Of a stretch of DNA of 10,899 nt, positions 1,370 to 9,404 are shown one piece after another. The number at the start of each line of letters is the position of its first letter. Position 1 is the stretch's first letter. The notes beneath the pieces are model-generated. The model was not told the DNA's origin. It ran no database searches and saw only the letters and a list, made by a program, of their open reading frames with translations. The translations under genes were made by a program, and so were the position numbers. The stretch comes from Corynebacterium faecale (GTDB taxonomy: Bacteria > Actinomycetota > Actinomycetes > Mycobacteriales > Mycobacteriaceae): NCBI RefSeq assembly GCF_030408735.1, contig NZ_CP047207.1, positions 1 to 10,899 of the forward strand. The letters run 5' to 3'.

Positions 1370-1386
1370 GGGGCCAGGCGGTGGAG

Positions 1387-1393
1387 AAGGAGG
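1387..1393 (+). promoter_or_regulatory. RBS that fixes the traA start
   Basis: AAGGAGG lies 8 bases before GTG 1402. This strong SD selects GTG 1402 over the in-frame upstream GTG at 1381, which has no SD. Starting at 1402 also gives the family-typical N-terminus V/M-LTIGKMHGQSVAYYE. Confidence 0.85.
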
Positions 1394-1401
1394 TGGGCGC
1401 G

Positions 1402-4400
1402 GTGCTGACGATTGGCAAGATGCATGGTCAGTCCGTGGCCTACTATGAGTCCACCGTGGACGAGGTTCCTGGCCCTGATGGTTATTATTCCGAGGCCGGA
1501 AACGCGCCTGCGCAAGCGTGGGTAAAAGGTGGCGATGCGGTTGAGTACGCTCGGCTGTTGGGCGTGGAGCAGGGCCAGACGATCAGTGGTGAACAGGTGA
1601 AAAACTGGTTCAATAACGTCACTTCCCCCAAGGGCGAGAAACTGGGGCGGGCCTTACGGGAAGATGGTGTTCCTGGTTTTGATCTGACGTTTTGCGCCCC
1701 GAAAAGTGTGTCGGTGTTGTGGGGGTTATCGGGACGTGATCAGGTGCGCCAGGCCGTGGATGAAGCCCACGGCGTGGCGGTGGCCACGGCGTTGGATTAT
1801 TTAGAAACCCATGCTGCCTACACTCGCCGGTGGGATGAAACAGACACCCTGATTGTGGATAAAACCCTGGGGTTATCGGGTGTGAAATATGAGCACCGGA
1901 CTTCTCGTGCGGGGGATCCTCATGTTCACTCACATGTTCTATTAGCTAATCGCCAACTCTGTGTGGATGGTAAGGCGCGCTCGATAGATGGGGTGAGCCT
2001 GTATCACGAGGCACGGGCTGCTGGGATGTTGTATCAGGCGGTGTTGCGGGAGGAATTAACCCGCCAATTGGGTGTGGAGTGGGGCGAGGTGACTAACGGC
2101 CAGGCCGATATTCTGGGGCTTCATGATCCGGCTGTGTTGACGGCTTTTTCTACCCGCAGTACCGAGATCGGTCAGTGGGAAGCGGAGAATACGTTGACCA
2201 CGAATTATCAGCTCCAGCGGGTAGCGCAGAAAACCACTCGTCAGGTTAAAGATGTTGATGCGACTCTTTCTGATTTGGAAACCCAGTGGAACCAGCATCA
2301 GGCAGCTGGGCTGGTCGCGCGGTTTGTCGCCGATCTAGGTACCACCCCAGAATCGGAAAACAGGAAGCCGTTGCCGACCCCGGAGGCGGTGTTAACCGAG
2401 GTCACCACGGAGCGGTCGACGTTTACCCGTGCTGATGTGGTGGAAAAATGTGCTGAGATGATCCCCGTGGGTGCCTTGAACGTCGATGAAATCGTAGAGT
2501 TTGCCGAGGCTACCGCCACCGCAGCACTGGAATCAGTGGCCTTAAGTGTCACCCCGGATCGTGCCCGCGAGGTCGATAACACCCAGCGGGAAGGTTCCCA
2601 GCGGTTTACCACTGATGTGGTGATCGAGGAGGTCAATAAGGGCATTGACCTGGCTGTGACCCGCACCAATAATGCGGTATCTGCTGCATCTATTGTCCCT
2701 GTGGAGGGGAAACTCTCGCCTGCCCAGGCTGAGGCCATGACCGCTGTGGTGACCTCTAATTTCTTAGCGTCTGTCGTGGTCGCACCTGCCGGTGCGGGTA
2801 AAACCTCGTCGTTGAAGGCGGCACGCGAGGTGTGGGAACACGCCGGTAAAACCGTGATCGGCTTGGCGCCGACGGGTAAAGCTGCGGATGTGATGGTCGG
2901 GGAACACGTCGCCCATGAATCCTCCACGATTGCCCGAGCACTGTATGGCACAGAGGATCTCACCCCGGCCCAGGTGGCCGCGACATTGGGGTGGAACCGC
3001 GACACTGTGGTGGTCGTGGATGAGGCCGGGATGGTGGCCACCCCAGATGTGGTGCGCCTGTTGGAGATCACCCGTGCGGCCCAGGCCAAGATTGTGCTGG
3101 TCGGTGACCCACAGCAGTATTCGGCAGTGAAGGCCAGGTCAGGGATGCTGGCGACTTTGGCGTATGAACTGCCCGATGCGGTGGAGTTGACGGAGGTTTT
3201 CCGTCAGCGTGACATGGCTGAGCGCGAGGCCAGCACCCAGTTACGTAGTGGGGATAGGGATTCGATTAAGCGTGCGGCCCACTGGTACATGCTTCAGGGT
3301 CGTCTTGATGCCGGTTCCACCACCGCGATGCTTGATGATGCGCTCGCTGGTTGGAAGAACGATACTGAAGCCGGCAAGGACTCTTTGCTGGTTGCTGCCA
3401 CTGGTGAGCAGGTCAAGGCGTTGAATGCTGGTACCCAGAAGATTCGCGCTGATCGCGGGGAACTTAATCTGTCGGAGGCCCGTGAATTATCGACTGGTCA
3501 GTGGTTGCATGCAGGTGATGTGTTGTTGACCAGGAAAAATGATTATGACCTGCTCACTAGCGTGGGTGATGTGGTTCGTAATGGTCAACGCTGGCGGGTC
3601 GATGCCTTGCATGGTGATGGTTCGATTAGTGCCACCCGTCTTGATGACACCCAGGCCACAGCCCTGATCCCAGCCTCCTATTTAAAGGAGTCTGGTCAGT
3701 TGGGTTATGCCTCTACCGGGCATTCCGCCCAGGGCGCCACGGTGGATGTGGCCCGCGTGGTGGCCGGTGCTGGTCAGGTTGACCGGGCCAGTGTCTATGT
3801 TCCACTCACCCGTGGTCGGGAGGGTAACTACCTGTATCTCACTGAATCCATGCCGGGTGATACCGATACCGGTCATGGTGGGGTCACACCGACTCAGCGT
3901 CGTAAGGGGGCGGAATATGCCCGTGATCTGCTGGTCGCGGCAGCTGCTCGTGATGGTGCTGATCAGACCCCGCACCAGGTGTGGGGCACAGCGCGCGCTG
4001 ATTGGGCGTTGACTCGTCTTGCCGCAAGTGGTGAGTTTATTAACGAGTCGCCGTTTAGTGGCACCCGGATGGGTGAAGTCATGGAGAATCGTGAGCAGCG
4101 TCGTGCAGAGCGGTTTAGTGAGTTCTTTCGGTTGACGCAGACCCCACCGAAGCAGAAACGGAAACTAGCACCACAACCCACACCACCAGCGTCAGATAAG
4201 GGTGTGGCCACCGGATTACTCGACATGTTGGGCATGTCAGCCACTGCTCAGCGCGAGGGAGAGACGTCTTCACCTGACCCGGTGAAGGAAGCAGAGAAGG
4301 TAGTGGCTGTGTTGGAGGAGCAACGCCGCGTGCTGGCCCAGCAGCGTCAGGTAATTGCCCAGCAGGTGGGGCAGGTGCAGGGGCAGGAACGCCAGATCAT

Positions 4401-4815
4401 CCAGCAGGTAGAGCAGGTGACACACCAGATCACCCAGGCGCAGCAGGCCCGCGATAACCGCGGGTGGTTGGCCAAGATGATCAAACCGAATGAGGGGGTG
4501 GCGCAGATTGAGCAGTGGAGTAAGCAGCAGGCTGGTTTAGAGCGCGATCGTGCCCAGATCACCGAGCAGCGCCAGAGCATTGAACGCGATCTTGCCCAGG
4601 TTGATCAGCAGTACCGTGATGTTCATGCGCAGTACCAACGTGCGCAGCTTTATCGTGATGGGGTCAAAGTTGAGCAGCTGTTGGGAAGAGTGTCTAAGCA
4701 TGATCTGAATGATGTGCTGGGTCGTCCTCAGTCACAGCGAAGCCAGGGAATTAGTGCGGCTCAGCAGTTCGGCATGAACCGTGGCCCCCACAAGGATCAC
4801 GGTGTGGAACGTTAA
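1402..4815 (+). CDS. traA: MobF-family conjugative relaxase/helicase TraA
   Basis: 1137-residue TrwC/TraI-like protein that nicks plasmid DNA at oriT and unwinds it for conjugative transfer. The N-terminal relaxase domain has paired tyrosines Y14-Y15 and Y28-Y29 and the metal-binding three-histidine motif H174-V-H176-S-H178. The middle of the protein is an SF1 RecD-like helicase: Walker A APAGAGKTS (residues 461-469), motif II VVVDEAGM (DE at 540-541), motif III VGDPQQ (567-572), and near the end of the helicase STGHSAQGAT and YVPLTRGRE (motifs V and VI). The C-terminal roughly 170 residues are a Gln-rich coiled coil (EEQRRVLAQQRQVIAQQ and following), probably for protein contacts. No TraD-like coupling protein or secretion channel is encoded in the window, so the plasmid is probably mobilisable with help from elsewhere. 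The frame is intact and full length. Confidence 0.93.
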   Translation: MLTIGKMHGQSVAYYESTVDEVPGPDGYYSEAGNAPAQAWVKGGDAVEYARLLGVEQGQTISGEQVKNWFNNVTSPKGEKLGRALREDGVPGFDLTFCAPKSVSVLWGLSGRDQVRQAVDEAHGVAVATALDYLETHAAYTRRWDETDTLIVDKTLGLSGVKYEHRTSRAGDPHVHSHVLLANRQLCVDGKARSIDGVSLYHEARAAGMLYQAVLREELTRQLGVEWGEVTNGQADILGLHDPAVLTAFSTRSTEIGQWEAENTLTTNYQLQRVAQKTTRQVKDVDATLSDLETQWNQHQAAGLVARFVADLGTTPESENRKPLPTPEAVLTEVTTERSTFTRADVVEKCAEMIPVGALNVDEIVEFAEATATAALESVALSVTPDRAREVDNTQREGSQRFTTDVVIEEVNKGIDLAVTRTNNAVSAASIVPVEGKLSPAQAEAMTAVVTSNFLASVVVAPAGAGKTSSLKAAREVWEHAGKTVIGLAPTGKAADVMVGEHVAHESSTIARALYGTEDLTPAQVAATLGWNRDTVVVVDEAGMVATPDVVRLLEITRAAQAKIVLVGDPQQYSAVKARSGMLATLAYELPDAVELTEVFRQRDMAEREASTQLRSGDRDSIKRAAHWYMLQGRLDAGSTTAMLDDALAGWKNDTEAGKDSLLVAATGEQVKALNAGTQKIRADRGELNLSEARELSTGQWLHAGDVLLTRKNDYDLLTSVGDVVRNGQRWRVDALHGDGSISATRLDDTQATALIPASYLKESGQLGYASTGHSAQGATVDVARVVAGAGQVDRASVYVPLTRGREGNYLYLTESMPGDTDTGHGGVTPTQRRKGAEYARDLLVAAAARDGADQTPHQVWGTARADWALTRLAASGEFINESPFSGTRMGEVMENREQRRAERFSEFFRLTQTPPKQKRKLAPQPTPPASDKGVATGLLDMLGMSATAQREGETSSPDPVKEAEKVVAVLEEQRRVLAQQRQVIAQQVGQVQGQERQIIQQVEQVTHQITQAQQARDNRGWLAKMIKPNEGVAQIEQWSKQQAGLERDRAQITEQRQSIERDLAQVDQQYRDVHAQYQRAQLYRDGVKVEQLLGRVSKHDLNDVLGRPQSQRSQGISAAQQFGMNRGPHKDHGVER

Positions 4816-4899: not shown

Positions 4900-4936
4900 T
4901 ATTTACAGTTTTACAGCACCTGTAAAACTGTAAATA
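4900..4936. repeat. Palindrome A: four 8-bp TTTACAG/CTGTAAA units
   Basis: Perfect 17-bp inverted repeat (4900-4916 paired with 4920-4936) around the spacer CAC. Each arm consists of two 8-bp-phased units, ATTTACAG then TTTTACAG. The same unit occurs at 6143-6174, 7085-7127 and 7591-7639. Palindrome D also has the same TTTTACAGCACC-type centre. It is probably bound by the RHH proteins encoded at 6794 and 7321, as operator or partition site. It sits between traA and the second peptide cassette. Confidence 0.85.
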
Positions 4937-5061: not shown

Positions 5062-5121
5062 ATCTATGTAGACACCAGGGCGTGAGAACCAGCTTCGAAC
5101 TTGTATAGAAAGAGGGCATTT

Positions 5122-5751
5122 TTGTCCGCAGTATTATTTACTATCGCACCTTATGCACTTATAGATTCAGTAAATCTACTTTTAATTGGAGTGGTACTTT
5201 TATCTAGATTATTTTCCGACCTGAGAAACAAAATATCTTGGATATCGATATCAATCCTATTTGGAGACTTTGTTGGAATTGTACTGGCTGGACTGATTGC
5301 CTTTACTGTGGTGAATCGTACTGGTCTAAATGCGCAGGAAATTCTGGAATCCCCCATTTTCGGTGGTGCACTTATTGCGGTGGGGTTATTGGGTCTTATT
5401 GCTGCAAGGAGCAGCCATTTAGTGTCGAGCGTATATAAATCGATTCGCTTTGTGGGAAAACGCAAATTAAACGCCATTCTTTTTGCAGTTTTTACTGGTC
5501 TGGTCCAATCTCTTACTTCTATTCCTTTTTGGGGCGGAATTCTAGAGATGAACGGATTTAATCTCGCTAATGTCAACTCTTTAGCAGTGCTGGTGGTTTA
5601 TAGTTTGATGGCAACTTTTGCTGTTGCTCTAGTCGTTTTCTATTCCTTGGTTGTGAAATCGGAAAAGACAGTTAATACAGCAAAGATCATTTCATGGGGA
5701 ACCCTACTTTCTTCAGTGGCTCTAATAGGGCTGGGAATTTTAAAATTATAA
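5122..5751 (+). CDS. Six-TM membrane protein, GAP/LysE-like
   Basis: Predicted integral membrane protein of 209 residues. I start it at TTG 5122 because AAGAGGG (5110-5116) lies 5 bases upstream. The more distal TTG 5101 has no SD and would add a charged MYRKRAF segment. Six hydrophobic segments are visible: LFTIAPYALIDSVNLLLIGV, ISILFGDFVGIVLAGLIAFT, GGALIAVGLLGLIAA, LNAILFAVFTGLVQSLTSI, LAVLVVYSLMATFAVALVVF and WGTLLSSVALIGLGIL. The first segment, with D-S-V-N in a hydrophobic context, and the three-plus-three layout recall GAP/LysE-type small exporters, but no diagnostic motif is conclusive. It lies 98 bases upstream of a secreted peptide gene and shares its AT-rich composition. An immunity or export role for that peptide is therefore the main hypothesis. 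Confidence 0.7.
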   Translation: MSAVLFTIAPYALIDSVNLLLIGVVLLSRLFSDLRNKISWISISILFGDFVGIVLAGLIAFTVVNRTGLNAQEILESPIFGGALIAVGLLGLIAARSSHLVSSVYKSIRFVGKRKLNAILFAVFTGLVQSLTSIPFWGGILEMNGFNLANVNSLAVLVVYSLMATFAVALVVFYSLVVKSEKTVNTAKIISWGTLLSSVALIGLGILKL

Positions 5752-5836
5752 ATTCTTATTTCATGTAGTGAATATATTTACCCGCAAAAGCGCCATAGAG
5801 CTTATGATTTTCTTATTCTGTTCATGGCATTTACTT

Positions 5837-5842
5837 AAGGAG
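5837..5842 (+). promoter_or_regulatory. RBS selecting a TTG start
   Basis: AAGGAG lies 7 bases before TTG 5850. No ATG or GTG in this frame would preserve the whole signal peptide, so the TTG start is well supported. Confidence 0.75.
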
Positions 5843-5849
5843 AGGTATT

Positions 5850-6077
5850 TTGAAGCTTGCAAAGCGGGTAGGCGCAACTTCTGCAGCACTAATGTTGTCT
5901 TTTGCCGTACTATTCCCGGCAACTGCCTCGGCTGCAGCGAGTTGGAATGGCCCTTTCAATTCTATGTTTACATGTTTATTACACATGAAGATCCCCCGTT
6001 TGGATGCGGGGGCAAACTTCCCCAATATTCGTGGTTGTGAAATGCATGATGATGGAAAGTATTGGTACCTGCTTTAA
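5850..6077 (+). CDS. Small secreted two-cysteine peptide (candidate bacteriocin/toxin), copy 2
   Basis: 75 residues from a TTG start. The signal peptide is clear: basic MKLAKR, a hydrophobic core around TSAALMLSFAVLF, and cleavage at A-S-A before A29 or two residues later. The mature peptide of about 45 residues has two cysteines (C42, C63) and an aromatic C-terminus (KYWYLL). W32, F36, S38, M39, C42 and H45 align with the secreted peptide at 1-252 in the pattern [FW]xxxFx[ST]MxxCxxH. The spacing between the cysteines differs (20 residues here, 14 there). It is the last gene of a two-gene unit with the six-TM protein and is followed by a terminator. This arrangement (membrane protein plus secreted peptide) is typical of small bacteriocin loci. 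Bacteriocin-linked plasmids such as pKW4 are known in Corynebacterium jeikeium, but I cannot claim identity with any described peptide. Confidence 0.7.
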   Translation: MKLAKRVGATSAALMLSFAVLFPATASAAASWNGPFNSMFTCLLHMKIPRLDAGANFPNIRGCEMHDDGKYWYLL

Positions 6078-6092
6078 GTAGGGCGAGAATTT

Positions 6093-6126
6093 GGGGTAAG
6101 GCACTTCGGGCTTTCTGCCCCTTTTT
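6093..6126 (+). terminator. Rho-independent terminator of the second peptide cassette
   Basis: GGGG (6093-6096) pairs with CCCC (6118-6121), and the inner AAGGC (6098-6102) pairs with GCTTT (6110-6114) using one G-T pair, around ACTTCGG. TTTTT (6122-6126) follows. It ends the membrane-protein/peptide transcript 16 bases after the peptide stop and insulates parA. Confidence 0.8.
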
Positions 6127-6142
6127 CTAAATTTAAATCTGA

Positions 6143-6174
6143 CTGCAAACCTGTAAACCCGTAAACCTGTTAGG
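6143..6174. repeat. Site B: four tandem 8-bp repeats before parA (operator/parS candidate)
   Basis: Four head-to-tail octamers: CTGCAAAC, CTGTAAAC, CCGTAAAC and CTGTTAGG. Contiguous short direct repeats are the classic target of RHH partition proteins; the heptads bound by the pSM19035 omega protein are a known analogue. The array overlaps the presumed parA promoter (TAGGCT, 6171-6176, as -10), so the RHH protein encoded downstream probably represses its own operon here. The last unit is degenerate. Confidence 0.8.
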
Positions 6175-6176
6175 CT
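6171..6176 (+). promoter_or_regulatory. Candidate -10 element of the parA promoter
   Basis: TAGGCT fits the actinobacterial TANNNT -10 pattern and lies 33 bases before the parA start codon. No good -35 is visible; that region is occupied by the octamer repeats. AGGGGAA at 6200-6206 serves as the RBS. Confidence 0.45.
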
Positions 6177-6209
6177 GAGTGTGCACCCACTACAACCGCA
6201 GGGGAAACC

Positions 6210-6797
6210 ATGATTATTAGTGCCGTCAACGCCAAAGGTGGGGTGGGTAAAACCACCACCACCATTTTCGTGGCCACCGAGTTAGCACGTCGCGGACATC
6301 AGGTGCGCGTGATTGATCTTGACCGCCAGGGCAGTGCCCTGGACTGGGCAGAACGAGCAGAAGAACACGGCGACCCACTTCCCTTCGATGTCGAGGTGTC
6401 CATCCCCCGCCAGCTACCCAGGATCGCCGCCCGACTAACAGACGAGGAAATTATCGTCATCGATGCCCCGCCCGGTGATGAAACAGCAATTGAGGCAGCC
6501 ATTGAAGTCAGTGACTTCGTAATCCTACCAACGCGTGCTACTGCGGCTGATCTGACACGAGTGTGGGAAATCCGCGACGCGCTCGATGACACCCCACATG
6601 CTGTCTTGTTGACCTTTGTCCGCCGTGGCACCAGCGCCCCGGAAGTTACCCGCGAGATCCTCGATGCCGAGCAACTACCGCGTTTCTCTACCGAGATCCC
6701 TTTGCGGGAGGATATGCACGCCGCTTATGGCTATGCCCCGATAGAGATGCACGGCTATGACGCCGTGACCACTGAGATGATGGAGCAGATGCAATGA
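6210..6797 (+). CDS. parA: ParA-family partition ATPase (small, type Ib)
   Basis: 195-residue Walker-type ATPase that moves plasmid copies apart by ATP-dependent binding to the nucoid or assembly. The deviant Walker A motif KGGVGKTTT starts at K9, with signature lysine K9 and catalytic K14. The A' motif [11 protein letters not shown] lies at residues 36-46, and Walker [10 protein letters not shown] has its aspartate at D85. There is no N-terminal helix-turn-helix domain, which places it with the short ParF-like (type Ib) proteins that leave autoregulation to a small partner. RBS AGGGGAA precedes the ATG. The stop overlaps the start of the next gene by 4 bp (ATGA), so the two are translationally coupled. 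The operon is preceded by the octamer array that is probably its operator and centromere. Confidence 0.92.
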
Positions 6798-7069
6798 CCA
6801 CCCGAGCACGTGTTGCCGACCAAGCCGGCCCGCGTAAAAAGACCACTACCACCCCGGTGACAAAGACCCCTGCGAAGAAAGCCACCCGCAAAGCAGCGGT
6901 GGAAAAAGCTTTCCAGCAACCCAGCACCCGCGACTTCGTGAAGAAAATGACCGTGGAAATCGACCAGGACGCCCACGCTGAACTAAAGATGATCGCAGCC
7001 AGGGATGGGGTCACCATCCGAGAAATCATTACCGACCTGATTGATGAGTACATCACAACCCACAGGTAA
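6794..7069 (+). CDS. parB: ParB-like ribbon-helix-helix partition protein
   Basis: 91 residues in two parts. The N-terminal half is basic, Thr/Lys/Ala-rich and probably disordered ([17 protein letters not shown]). The C-terminal half (residues 51-91) is an RHH fold: strand KMTVEID, helix around 59-71 ([13 protein letters not shown]), a turn at GVT, and helix around 74-88 ([14 protein letters not shown]). Its organisation matches ParG-type partners of ParF-like ATPases. In ParG the flexible tail carries an arginine that stimulates ATP hydrolysis, and R4 or R6 could play that part here. Likely target DNA is the CTGTAAAC octamers on both sides of the operon. The gene overlaps the end of parA by 4 bp. 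Its RHH domain is 26/41 identical to the membrane-linked protein encoded at 7321. Confidence 0.85.
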
Positions 7070-7084
7070 ACGACCATAAACCAA

Positions 7085-7127
7085 CGTTACAGGTTTACAG
7101 GTTTGCGACACCTGTAAACCTGTAACG
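7085..7127. repeat. Palindrome C downstream of parB
   Basis: Perfect 18-bp inverted repeat (7085-7102 paired with 7110-7127) around a 7-base spacer. Each arm holds two TTACAG units 8 bp apart (GTTACAGGTTTACAGG). It shares the octamer unit of sites A, B and D. It lies 16 bases after the parB stop, so it could serve both as the parAB terminator stem (no T-tract) and as an RHH binding site. Confidence 0.85.
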
Positions 7128-7320
7128 GGCAACGCCACGACCCTCACTGCGTTCTCCGCCCAGGGAAAGAGGTCATCCTCTGTGGGGGTTGAGATTGTTT
7201 TATTCCATCACCAGAACCAGACACGATAGGTCTACGTTTTACGGTTAACTGAGGGGGTAGGTAATCACTGTTTATTTTTCCTACAGTCATGCACGCGCGA
7301 TTATTATTTAAGGAGACATC
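7128..7320. other. Intergenic region upstream of the membrane-linked RHH gene
   Basis: No ORF or RNA gene is recognisable. It contains a small AGAGG/CCTCT dyad and a GGTTAAC tract. It ends in AAGGAG (7310-7315), a strong RBS five bases before ATG 7321. The separate RBS and the 250-base distance from parB suggest that this gene has its own promoter, but I could not place one with confidence. Confidence 0.4.
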
Positions 7321-7575
7321 ATGTCTATGGGCAGCGGGGAACTGATGGTTCTTCTTATCCTGTTCTTTCTTTTACTTGGAGTAATCGGGGTGATTGTCGT
7401 CGTTATCACCAAAGTGCTCCAGTGGTCGAACAACCGTAGTGGTGTCACGAAACCCACGGTTGAAATTGACCGAGAGCTCCATGCTGAGTTGACGAGAATC
7501 GCCGCTAGGGACGGGGTGACGGTTCATAGAATGGTTGGTGATCTTCTTCATGAGTACATCACAACCCGCAGGTAG
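7321..7575 (+). CDS. Membrane-anchored ribbon-helix-helix protein (ParB paralogue with a TM helix)
   Basis: 84 residues. Residues 8-29 (LMVLLILFFLLLGVIGVIVV plus two) form one strong transmembrane helix, followed by a short linker with K31 and R39 and then an RHH domain (residues 44-84). That domain is 26/41 identical to the C-terminus of the parB-like protein encoded at 6794, including [13 protein letters not shown] and EYITT. The charge pattern predicts the N-terminus outside and the RHH domain in the cytoplasm. The paralogue has therefore exchanged its basic disordered tail for a membrane anchor. AAGGAG five bases upstream of the ATG gives a clear start. The gene is bracketed by palindromes C and D. 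Possible roles are tethering the plasmid to the membrane, sequestering the soluble ParB by heterodimer formation, or membrane-linked repression. I know of no named family with this architecture. Confidence 0.8.
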   Translation: MSMGSGELMVLLILFFLLLGVIGVIVVVITKVLQWSNNRSGVTKPTVEIDRELHAELTRIAARDGVTVHRMVGDLLHEYITTRR

Positions 7576-7590
7576 CAGCGAGAAACCTTA

Positions 7591-7639
7591 GGTATGGGTT
7601 TATGGTTTTACAGCACCCGTAAACCTGTAAACCCATACC
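7591..7639. repeat. Palindrome D downstream of the membrane-linked RHH gene
   Basis: Imperfect inverted repeat (7591-7613 paired with 7617-7639) around the spacer CAC. The outer 12 bp (GGTATGGGTTTA) are perfect and the inner part contains TTTTACAG opposite CCGTAAAC-CTGTAAAC. It has the same octamer unit and the same TTTTACAGCACC-like centre as palindrome A. It lies 15 bases after the stop and upstream of the repA control region, so it could link partition proteins to replication control. Confidence 0.75.
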
Positions 7640-7711
7640 AGGAGAGTGAAGGCCAGGGGGGGAAAGGTATTTTTACCTGCATCGACGTGTCGTTCAATCA
7701 GGTGGGGTAAG

Positions 7712-7726
7712 GCACTGCTACAGTGC
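7712..7726. repeat. Short palindrome in the repA upstream region
   Basis: GCACTG and CAGTGC form a perfect 6-bp dyad around CTA. TACAGT (7719-7724) inside it could be a -10 for the repA message, but no well-spaced -35 is visible. It may be an operator. Confidence 0.3.
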
Positions 7727-7734
7727 GGGAAAAG

Positions 7735-7777
7735 AACTTAACAAAAGCGAAAGCCCACCAGCTCGACACTGGTGGGC
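7735..7777 (-). terminator. Probable terminator of an antisense (countertranscribed) RNA
   Basis: A perfect 9-bp stem GCCCACCAG/CTGGTGGGC (7753-7761 with 7769-7777) is followed, reading on the minus strand, by TTTCGCTTTTGTT. This is a rho-independent terminator pointing away from repA. On the plus strand the stem is followed by ATTCATTG, so it would not terminate repA mRNA. This is the layout expected for an antisense RNA that controls RepA synthesis. Confidence 0.65.
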
Positions 7778-7856
7778 ATTCATTGAATCGCTTAGCACCT
7801 AGCTTCGAACCTAGCTGCTGAGCGCTTTACACCGGTCTTCGACCACCGGGGAAAGC
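7778..7856 (-). ncRNA. Putative antisense RNA covering the repA leader
   Basis: The leader opposite this interval folds into a 14-bp stem with one mismatch and one wobble (7789-7802 with 7811-7824) closed by a CTTCGAAC loop. A CCGGT/ACCGG hairpin (7832-7836 with 7845-7849) then ends just before the repA RBS. A minus-strand terminator lies directly beyond. Countertranscribed RNA control of repA is established for relatives such as pGA1. I did not find a convincing minus-strand promoter, so the 5' end is unknown. Confidence 0.45.
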
Positions 7857-9308
7857 ATGGCTATGAGTCTAGTCAATAACACCGTGCCTGGCACAACCAG
7901 ACACACTCAGACCACCGATATTTACGGTGGCCTAGAAGACACCCCTGCCAGTGGCCTGGATCGTGAGGCCTTGCTTGCCCACCTGGGCCGCAAGGTGCTG
8001 CACGGGAGCCGGGGGCGTGATTTCGCTAGCTCTTATCTCACCACTAAAAACGGCACCCGAGCACCCCGAATGTACCGGGTGGACTCAGAGGCGCTGGGTA
8101 AATGCGAGTACGTTCAATTAACCACCAAGCAGTATGCCTCTGTCCTGGTGGTTGATATTGATCTTCCTGGTGATGCCGGTGGACACCCGGTGAGTTTGAA
8201 TGACCAGGTCAAGGAAAAGTTCTCCCAGCTGATTACCCATTACCTAGGCCCTTCCTGGGTGGGGATTAACCCGGTTAACGGTAAATGCCAGGCGATCTGG
8301 TTGATTGATGCGGTCTATGCCGATAAAGACGGCCAATCCCGGGCTATGACGCTACTGGCCGCAGCGACCCATGACCTGGGACAATGGTTAGGTCATGACA
8401 GCCATTTTTCCCATCGTTTCAGCCGGTCACCGTTTTATACCGGCGATTCCCCGACCGCGTATCGGTGGTATCGCCAGCATCATCGCGTGTACCGGTTGGC
8501 GGATCTTCTTGCAGGGGTGCGTGCGATGACCGGTCAGGAGCAGTACAGCAAGCCTCGTCAGCAGTTTTCCAGTGGCCGTGAGCTGATCAACGCTGTGAAG
8601 GCCAGGCGTGAGGACGCAGAACGCTTCAAAGCTTTATCGAAGGATGTGGAAGCAGAACTCGCCGGCCAATTCGATCAGTATGACCCGGAGCTGATCCAGG
8701 GTGTGCGGGTGTTGTGGATCCGTGAAGGCCGAGCAGCGCGTGATGAAACCGCGTTTCGCCATGCCTTAAAGACTGGTCATCGGTTGCGTCAGGCTGGTCA
8801 GCGGATGACCGATGCGGCGATCATTGATGCCTACGAACATGCCTACACCGTGGCCCAGGAGGTCGGGGCTGATGGGCGCAAACGTGAGTTACCGCCGATG
8901 AAAGACCGCCAGACGATGGCCAGGCGAGTGCGTGGTTATGTCACGACGTCTAAAGGCGAGGTCTACGGCAGCTCAGCAGCCGCGGGGCGTGCGACCAGTG
9001 CGGAGCGTAAAGCATTAGCTACGATGGGGCGTAGAGGCGGGAAAAAGGCCGCAGAACGCTGGGAAACTGACCCAAATGGCGAATATGCACAAAGTCGCCG
9101 AGCCGTGATGAAGAAGACACATAAGCGGAAGAAAATTGAGGGTGTCGGCAATCGTCAAAAAGTAGGACAGTTTATTACGTCGTACTGGATGGAGACAGAA
9201 CAGCTCCCAACCTGGCAGGAGATCCAACAAGAAACAGGATTATCCCGCGCGACTGTCGCCCGGCATATCTCAGCGTTGAAGGAACTTGGTGAGTATCCAG
9301 AAATTTAA
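7857..9308 (+). CDS. repA: Plasmid replication initiator RepA (replicase family, pCG1/pNG2 type)
   Basis: 483-residue replication protein of the corynebacterial RepA/ColE2-like replicase group, which binds the origin and can make the primer. The N-terminal catalytic region (about residues 40-215) has an acidic V-D100-I-D102 motif in a hydrophobic strand, a VNGKCQAIWLI segment and HFSHRFSRSPF. A helical region with primase C-terminal character follows (about 230-370). A very basic stretch (RRGGKKAAERW, then KKTHKRKKI) leads to a C-terminal helix-turn-helix in the last 34 residues (EIQQETGLSRATVARHIS) for origin recognition. Start choice is ambiguous: ATG 7857 sits only 4 bases after GGGGA, while ATG 7863 has better spacing. 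The structured leader and antisense terminator upstream indicate control at the RNA level. The origin may lie within or just after the gene, but I see no clear iterons. Confidence 0.93.
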   Translation: MAMSLVNNTVPGTTRHTQTTDIYGGLEDTPASGLDREALLAHLGRKVLHGSRGRDFASSYLTTKNGTRAPRMYRVDSEALGKCEYVQLTTKQYASVLVVDIDLPGDAGGHPVSLNDQVKEKFSQLITHYLGPSWVGINPVNGKCQAIWLIDAVYADKDGQSRAMTLLAAATHDLGQWLGHDSHFSHRFSRSPFYTGDSPTAYRWYRQHHRVYRLADLLAGVRAMTGQEQYSKPRQQFSSGRELINAVKARREDAERFKALSKDVEAELAGQFDQYDPELIQGVRVLWIREGRAARDETAFRHALKTGHRLRQAGQRMTDAAIIDAYEHAYTVAQEVGADGRKRELPPMKDRQTMARRVRGYVTTSKGEVYGSSAAAGRATSAERKALATMGRRGGKKAAERWETDPNGEYAQSRRAVMKKTHKRKKIEGVGNRQKVGQFITSYWMETEQLPTWQEIQQETGLSRATVARHISALKELGEYPEI

Positions 9309-9326
9309 CTAAAGGGTCTCACACCA

Positions 9327-9342
9327 TAAGCAATATACGGTT
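9327..9342 (+). repeat. 16-bp repeat outside the left end of the IS
   Basis: TAAGCAATATACGGTT matches TAAGTACTATACGGTT at 10428-10443 in 14 of 16 positions, same orientation. The copies lie 62 and 13 bases outside the IS ends, so they are not its target-site duplication. They could be traces of an older element into which the IS inserted. Confidence 0.4.
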
Positions 9343-9345
9343 CCC

Positions 9346-9359
9346 CTGCCGGTAGGCAG
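9346..9359 (+). terminator. Possible weak terminator after repA
   Basis: CTGCC and GGCAG form a 5-bp stem with a GGTA loop, followed by TAGTAGTTATTTT. The stem is short and the T-rich stretch is interrupted, so termination here is uncertain. Confidence 0.3.
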
Positions 9360-9404
9360 TAGTAGTTATTTTCCTTAGTTGTTTTACTCTTGGTAGAGAA
9401 CTAG

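Follow-up and report, generated by a model that had tools for sequence, protein, structure and literature searches.

A putative membrane-anchored RHH protein encoded beside parA-parG on a Corynebacterium faecale plasmid

The window analysed here is a whole contig (C4) of 10,899 bases from a 3.15 Mb genome of five contigs (G000), and between its parG-like and replication initiator genes lies a conserved gene of a little-noticed family, here called TM-RHH. It is a real gene, because a full-length relative 90% identical to it occurs in public assemblies, because homologues are present on Corynebacterium chromosomes, and because dN/dS over the whole gene is 0.43-0.49. Judged from its sequence, the product is probably a membrane-tethered RHH DNA-binding protein: a single-pass membrane protein with its N-terminus outside and its RHH domain in the cytoplasm, where that domain would dimerise and bind DNA at the membrane.

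Genomic setting

The genes and the plasmid-specific stretch referred to below are:

1381-4815: mobF relaxase gene
6210..6797, + strand: parA-like ATPase gene, overlapping the start of parG
6794..7069, + strand: parG-like gene, encoding a soluble relative of TM-RHH (product P0002; PF09274, E 6.4e-06)
approx. 7128..7660, + strand: stretch without a pCE2 counterpart (edges inexact), containing TM-RHH and palindrome D
7321..7575, + strand: TM-RHH gene (product P0001), 84 aa, ATG to TAG, recognised as an ORF with homologues
7857..9308, + strand: replication initiator gene (rep), downstream of TM-RHH

The window resembles pCE2, a plasmid of C. efficiens (which covers 53% of the window at 85%), on which parA, parG and rep stand in the same order; parG and rep are separated there by 304 bases with no annotated gene inside, and in the window by 787 bases. 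TM-RHH does not directly follow parA, since parG and a 251-base gap (from the parG end at 7069) intervene. The 193 bases at 7128-7320 matched no plasmid record at E ≤ 0.01, and no Rfam family reached its gathering score within 5700-9400. A second parA-parG-rep module with octads is present in the same genome (L027 8224-10824, on the 103,707-base contig C2), and its ParA is 92% identical to that of the window. Two small proteins encoded at 5850-6077 and 1-252 have starts that, by eye, resemble signal peptides; neither has a Pfam match at E ≤ 0.1.

Gene start and predicted membrane helix

7304..7316, + strand: Shine-Dalgarno leader TTATTTAAGGAGA, identical in both chromosomal homologues (G034 and G064)
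7342..7410, + strand: predicted transmembrane helix, residues 8-30 (hydropathy; AlphaFold2 helix 5-39, low confidence)

The original prediction of one strong transmembrane helix in the 84-residue frame agrees with hydropathy analysis: its best 19-residue Kyte-Doolittle mean, from residue 11, is 3.51. Among the 70 frames of the window (stop to stop, minimum 60 codons) this is the highest and the only value of 2.9 or more (the next is 2.61). Net charge is -1 over residues 1-8 and +3 over residues 31-45, and the positive-inside rule therefore predicts an N-out topology with the RHH domain inside, the cytoplasmic placement that had been proposed. A signal peptide is disfavoured, as the N-terminus is not basic and the charges come after the helix. 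The AlphaFold2 model is weak (pLDDT 65, pTM 0.29) and has no strand in the monomer.

That the gene is real had been argued from its strong ribosome-binding site and the flanking palindromes C and D, and both features are confirmed: TTATTTAAGGAGA also precedes the starts in G034 and G064, and both palindromes were located (see below). The helix is retained in P0003, P0007, P0008 and P0009 and in both chromosomal proteins (best means 3.13-3.51), and no Shine-Dalgarno sequence was seen by eye before a possible internal start at codon 32. A soluble protein or a wrongly chosen start is rejected on the basis of the conserved leader and helix. When homologues lacking the membrane segment through a different start were looked for, the helix proved conserved in these members, with start and leader conserved in the two chromosomal homologues; two public sequences, P0004 and P0010, are shortened. 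Elsewhere in the window, TTACTTAAGGAGA, which precedes the small gene at 5850-6077, resembles the TM-RHH leader.

Two separate 53-residue membrane proteins of other Corynebacterium genomes, L046 1501-1662 (per-genome E 0.0016) and L055 1501-1662 (0.0066), are weakly similar to the N-terminal part of TM-RHH, and the profile search of Corynebacterium genomes gives further weak N-terminal matches of this kind. The resemblance is too weak to claim a common origin.

The RHH domain and its relation to ParG

7450..7572, + strand: RHH domain, residues 44-84, by homology to ParG

The C-terminal domain was said to be identical at 26 of 41 positions to the parB-like protein encoded about 250 bases upstream, and this holds over residues 44-84 of TM-RHH and the window's ParG-like protein, residue 43 being a mismatch; by tblastn the two share 55.6% identity over 54 residues. 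Profile-profile alignment extends the similarity (hhalign probability 98.3, E 2.3e-14), placing columns 30-84 of TM-RHH on columns 38-92 of the ParG profiles, with K, Q and R just after the helix common to both. An Arc-like repressor family, phrog_582, matches three members (E 0.00037, 5.8e-05 and 0.00022). Every tested member falls below the cut-off of the Pfam RHH families, and PF09274 (ParG), which P0002 matches, does not match P0001, P0003, P0005 or P0006 at E ≤ 1. A profile search of the PDB returned an uncharacterised protein first (E 0.058), then ParG and omega (E 0.15-0.67), none of them significant.

The predicted helix occupies the place of the basic tail of ParG. A tree was built from the 26 distinct RHH pieces left when three duplicates were dropped from 29 rows; in it the seven TM-RHH rows form one side of a branch supported at 100/99, with the window's ParG on the other side; the TM-RHH/ParG split recurs in 100% of 200 bootstrap trees and with 17 rows. 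These unrooted trees, built on short pieces and with three long-branched rows, favour a single origin of the TM-RHH group. We infer that one N-terminal element replaced the other, helix for tail or tail for helix. The idea that a duplication had exchanged the tail of ParG for a membrane anchor thus survives in part: the anchor does sit where ParG has its tail, but a recent local duplication of parG is rejected, the TM-RHH rows being separate from all ParG rows and the same leader standing before the chromosomal TM-RHH genes. What resembles a recent duplication is explained by the similarity of RHH domains in general, by the short 3' end in common and by the repetition of the palindrome; TM-RHH and ParG may still go back to an old duplication.

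The shared 3' end comprises:

7043..7069, + strand: 3' end of parG (EYITTHR), resembling that of TM-RHH
7549..7575, + strand: 3' end of TM-RHH; 22 of the 24 bases of codons 77-84 are the same as in parG

In the last eight codons (24 bases) TM-RHH shares 22 bases with the local parG and 16 with its G034 homologue; over codons 43-76 the corresponding counts are 64 and 77 of 102. It looks from these counts as if only the last ~24 coding bases were exchanged between TM-RHH and the parG of this plasmid. The likely direction, for so short a tract, is from TM-RHH to parG, because the EYITTHR ending of the local ParG is unlike the [GE]Y[IV]KK[HY]R of the eight other ParG proteins listed, and P0003 and P0004 end in TTRR.

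In G034 and G064 alike, TM-RHH itself is all that the family profile matches at E ≤ 1, and no ParG was found in either; it therefore seems that the family can do without ParG as a partner. At E ≤ 1e-6, G064 yields a single ParA match, a weak one (2.5e-07, in a 312-codon frame) that is presumably the chromosomal ParA; G034 has a presumed chromosomal ParA and a plasmid-type ParA on contig C3.

Distribution and selection

A search of 5.8 billion proteins gave four candidates for TM-RHH, P0003 and P0004 being the relatives among them, and with a four-row profile six of 233 candidates matched at E ≤ 1: P0003, P0004 and four that resemble the chromosomal forms. P0003 is the full-length, 84-residue relative with 90% identity, carried on contigs of up to 2,420 bases; P0004, at 64 aa, is missing roughly 20 residues at its N-terminus, and P0007 and P0008 are full-length homologues. 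P0010 (52 aa) lacks 38 internal residues relative to P0006, a chromosomal form (L007 1501-1773), and the ends of the gap fall at ATCGCAGC, repeated in L007. Given this internal loss, the chromosomal-form gene may be dispensable where P0010 occurs.

Among 242 Corynebacterium genomes, one per species, a whole-length match was found in three: that of the window, G034 and G064, the latter two with 57% and 50% identity over all 84 residues. The G064 chromosome we take to be that of the C. glutamicum type strain, ATCC 13032, an organism well suited to laboratory work. Start, Shine-Dalgarno sequence, helix and RHH are common to all three forms, and their DNA is similar from ~40-65 bases upstream of the start through to where the RHH ends. 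Both chromosomal copies lie on the main contig, between an ORF of ~207 codons, which adjoins an aldo/keto-reductase-like gene, and rpmA-rplU (names by eye). The ~207-codon ORF is matched in 22 of the 242 genomes; at the best ten of these loci (at least 65% identity) TM-RHH is present in two, G034 and G064, and absent from the other eight, the chromosome of G000 among them. This sporadic presence counts against the reading that we prefer.

The window and G034 genes differ at 22, 16 and 33 first, second and third codon positions, and dN/dS is 0.24-0.39 for the RHH and 0.59-0.74 for residues 1-40. None of the 13 plasmid records with RHH matches covered 80% of TM-RHH. A phage origin found no match in 50,697 phage records, and 23 stretches of viral contigs that fit a pattern encoded no TM-RHH relative. 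An order-wide profile search of 397 genomes, in which just 13 of the first-look candidates were scored in many of the large genomes, gave two matches at E ≤ 0.001: the window's own genome and G546, where the match spans only profile positions 41-77 inside a 5936-codon frame. Two scans of genome contigs returned no relative, their reach being limited, since homologues exist.

Octads, palindromes and strand residues

6144..6167, + strand: three tandem TGTAAACC-type octads upstream of parA, the presumed operator/centromere
7085..7127, no strand: palindrome C, of octads, between parG and TM-RHH (arms 7085-7102/7110-7127, 18 bases, 100%)
7591..7639, no strand: palindrome D, of octads, 16 bases after the TM-RHH stop (arms 7591-7611/7619-7639, 21 bases, 86%)

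Palindrome C thus precedes TM-RHH and palindrome D stands between it and rep. In the window's own genome the double octad occurs at seven places (up to two mismatches), all on the non-chromosomal contigs C2 and C4 (reversed-pattern control, 0), and the palindrome core at four, on C2 and C4 only (control, 0). No octads were found beside the chromosomal TM-RHH genes of G034 and G064. Over whole genomes, G034 has no double octad (reversed control, 3), G064 has two, scattered, and in G042 four are located at the pCE2-like contig C1, with a fifth elsewhere.

A weaker octad palindrome at 4900-4936, after mobF, was not seen within 11,915 of the 23,743 bases of pCE2. Downstream of it, 5101-5751 encodes a 216-codon multi-helix membrane protein (SfLAP below its cut-off, E 0.0032). 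A palindrome of another kind lies ~100-150 bases before the TM-RHH gene of G064 (L007 1354-1398; arms 1354-1375/1377-1398, 22 bases, 86%); it was not seen in G034, and could be an operator or the terminator of the preceding gene.

In the strand that presumably reads the DNA, K44, T46 and E48 are present in the plasmid form and in P0003, as they are in ParG, and the chromosomal forms have T, T and D or N; P0004 has M at position 46. We take T46 and E48 to be equivalent to the base-contacting residues of omega. Among 11 ParG-type loci with K-T-E, eight have at least two octad pairs and three (L038, L039 and L054) have none (shuffled mean ≤ 0.03), and two loci with K-T-Q have two and one pairs; the link between K-T-E and octads is not strict and is suggestive only.

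Proposed role and alternatives

Because K44, T46 and E48 are ParG-like and ParG-type octad palindromes flank the gene, the plasmid form most likely uses the same sites as ParG. By binding them it would bring the par/rep region near the membrane, repress from the membrane, or both. With the RHH kept and the ParA-activating tail of ParG lost, it would therefore hold or repress DNA without stimulating an ATPase, outside ParA-driven movement. The chromosomal forms would be stand-alone membrane-tethered DNA binders, independent of ParG. Membrane insertion, dimerisation, DNA binding, the identity of the sites, and tethering or repression are what we infer for TM-RHH from these comparisons.

An explanation that overlaps this one, and that we would put short of an even chance, is that TM-RHH is a local regulator only: a membrane-borne repressor of the rep/par promoters or of the TM-RHH gene, with no tethering. 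ParG of TP228 is described as likewise repressing its own operon (PMC7308502), palindromes C and D are placed before TM-RHH and ahead of rep, the chromosomal copies are orphans with no par neighbours, and the different palindrome before the G064 start is a candidate operator (or terminator). However, we found no operator that the three genes share: G034 lacks the palindrome of G064, and the chromosomal copies lack octads.

It is rather unlikely that TM-RHH is a passenger, an orphan gene that the plasmid has picked up and that now plays no part in its biology. Its sporadic presence, the existence of the related pCE2 without it and the internal deletion in the public sequence P0010 would suit a passenger, but dN/dS below 0.5, the 90% identical P0003 elsewhere, the ParG-like strand residues that the plasmid form and P0003 have, and the flanking ParG-type palindrome all speak against one.

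We consider it unlikely that the protein acts on this plasmid as a modulator of ParG, through mixed dimers or competition for sites, drawing ParG to the membrane. The RHH identity of 26/41, the near-identical 3' end (22/24 bases) and the same octad palindromes on either side are what such a modulator might be expected to have; it cannot be the general role of the family, however, as the gene is kept in G034 and G064, where no ParG was found, and the only ParA match of G064 at E ≤ 1e-6 is weak. The earlier suggestion of ParB titration by mixed dimers fails as a family role on the same ground, TM-RHH being the sole profile match in both genomes.

Finally, a toxin- or bacteriocin-like membrane-active peptide with an autoregulatory, antitoxin-like RHH is very improbable: a family of putative bacteriocins is weakly matched by both chromosomal forms (E 0.17-0.19; score 13 bits, cut-off 40), but the match is at chance level and is not shown by P0001 or P0003.

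Comparison with known systems

To our knowledge, partition DNA-binding proteins of the RHH kind have been treated as soluble. The original prediction knew of no described system with such a part, and in keeping with this we found no RHH domain joined to a transmembrane helix beside partition genes among the papers listed by searches of open-licence PubMed Central; the part of PMC4158269 drawn on here describes no fusion of an RHH with a single transmembrane helix.

In the account of TP228 ParG drawn on here, the RHH domain binds DNA and the protein represses its own operon, and the tails, besides modulating DNA binding, stimulate ParF by means of an arginine-finger-like motif (PMC7308502). TM-RHH resembles ParG and omega in its RHH domain, in the profile similarity of residues 30-84 to Corynebacterium ParG, and in the position of its plasmid copy next to parA-parG with octad palindromes. 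It differs in having a transmembrane helix for the flexible basic tail, in a gene that does not overlap parA, and in its occurrence beside rpmA-rplU on chromosomes of genomes with no detected ParG.

ToxR and CadC are membrane one-component regulators that combine a winged helix with an outside sensor domain. As in these regulators, the DNA-binding domain of TM-RHH would be anchored in the membrane; unlike them, it has only ~7 residues before the helix, and P0001 matches no winged-helix or sensor domain at E ≤ 1 in Pfam or NCBIfam.

The domain plan of phi29 p16.7 includes a DNA-binding fold different from RHH. This membrane protein is described as having been proposed to recruit phage DNA to the membrane (PMC4974454), and membrane recruitment of a mobile element's DNA is its likeness to the role proposed for TM-RHH. 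It is set apart by its description, which concerns phage replication and displaced single strands.

Noc is kin to ParB. In B. subtilis it is described as binding DNA and membrane at once, recruiting DNA to the membrane (PMC4331003). TM-RHH is like it in plan only, each being related to a DNA-binding protein of partition and having a membrane element at the N-terminus: Noc is of the ParB type and peripheral, through an amphipathic helix, whereas TM-RHH is of the RHH type with a predicted true transmembrane helix, and P0001 matches no ParB-type family of Pfam or NCBIfam at E ≤ 1. It is tempting, if somewhat unlikely, to see in TM-RHH an RHH counterpart of Noc, a DNA-to-membrane tether derived from a centromere-binding RHH protein that arose once in the Corynebacterium glutamicum group, moves between chromosome and plasmid, and has been adapted on the plasmid so that it keeps the par/rep region at the membrane via the sites of ParG. 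If a conserved membrane-anchored branch of RHH proteins does exist, it would be a second route, independent of that taken by Noc, from a relative of a segregation protein to a linker of DNA and membrane.
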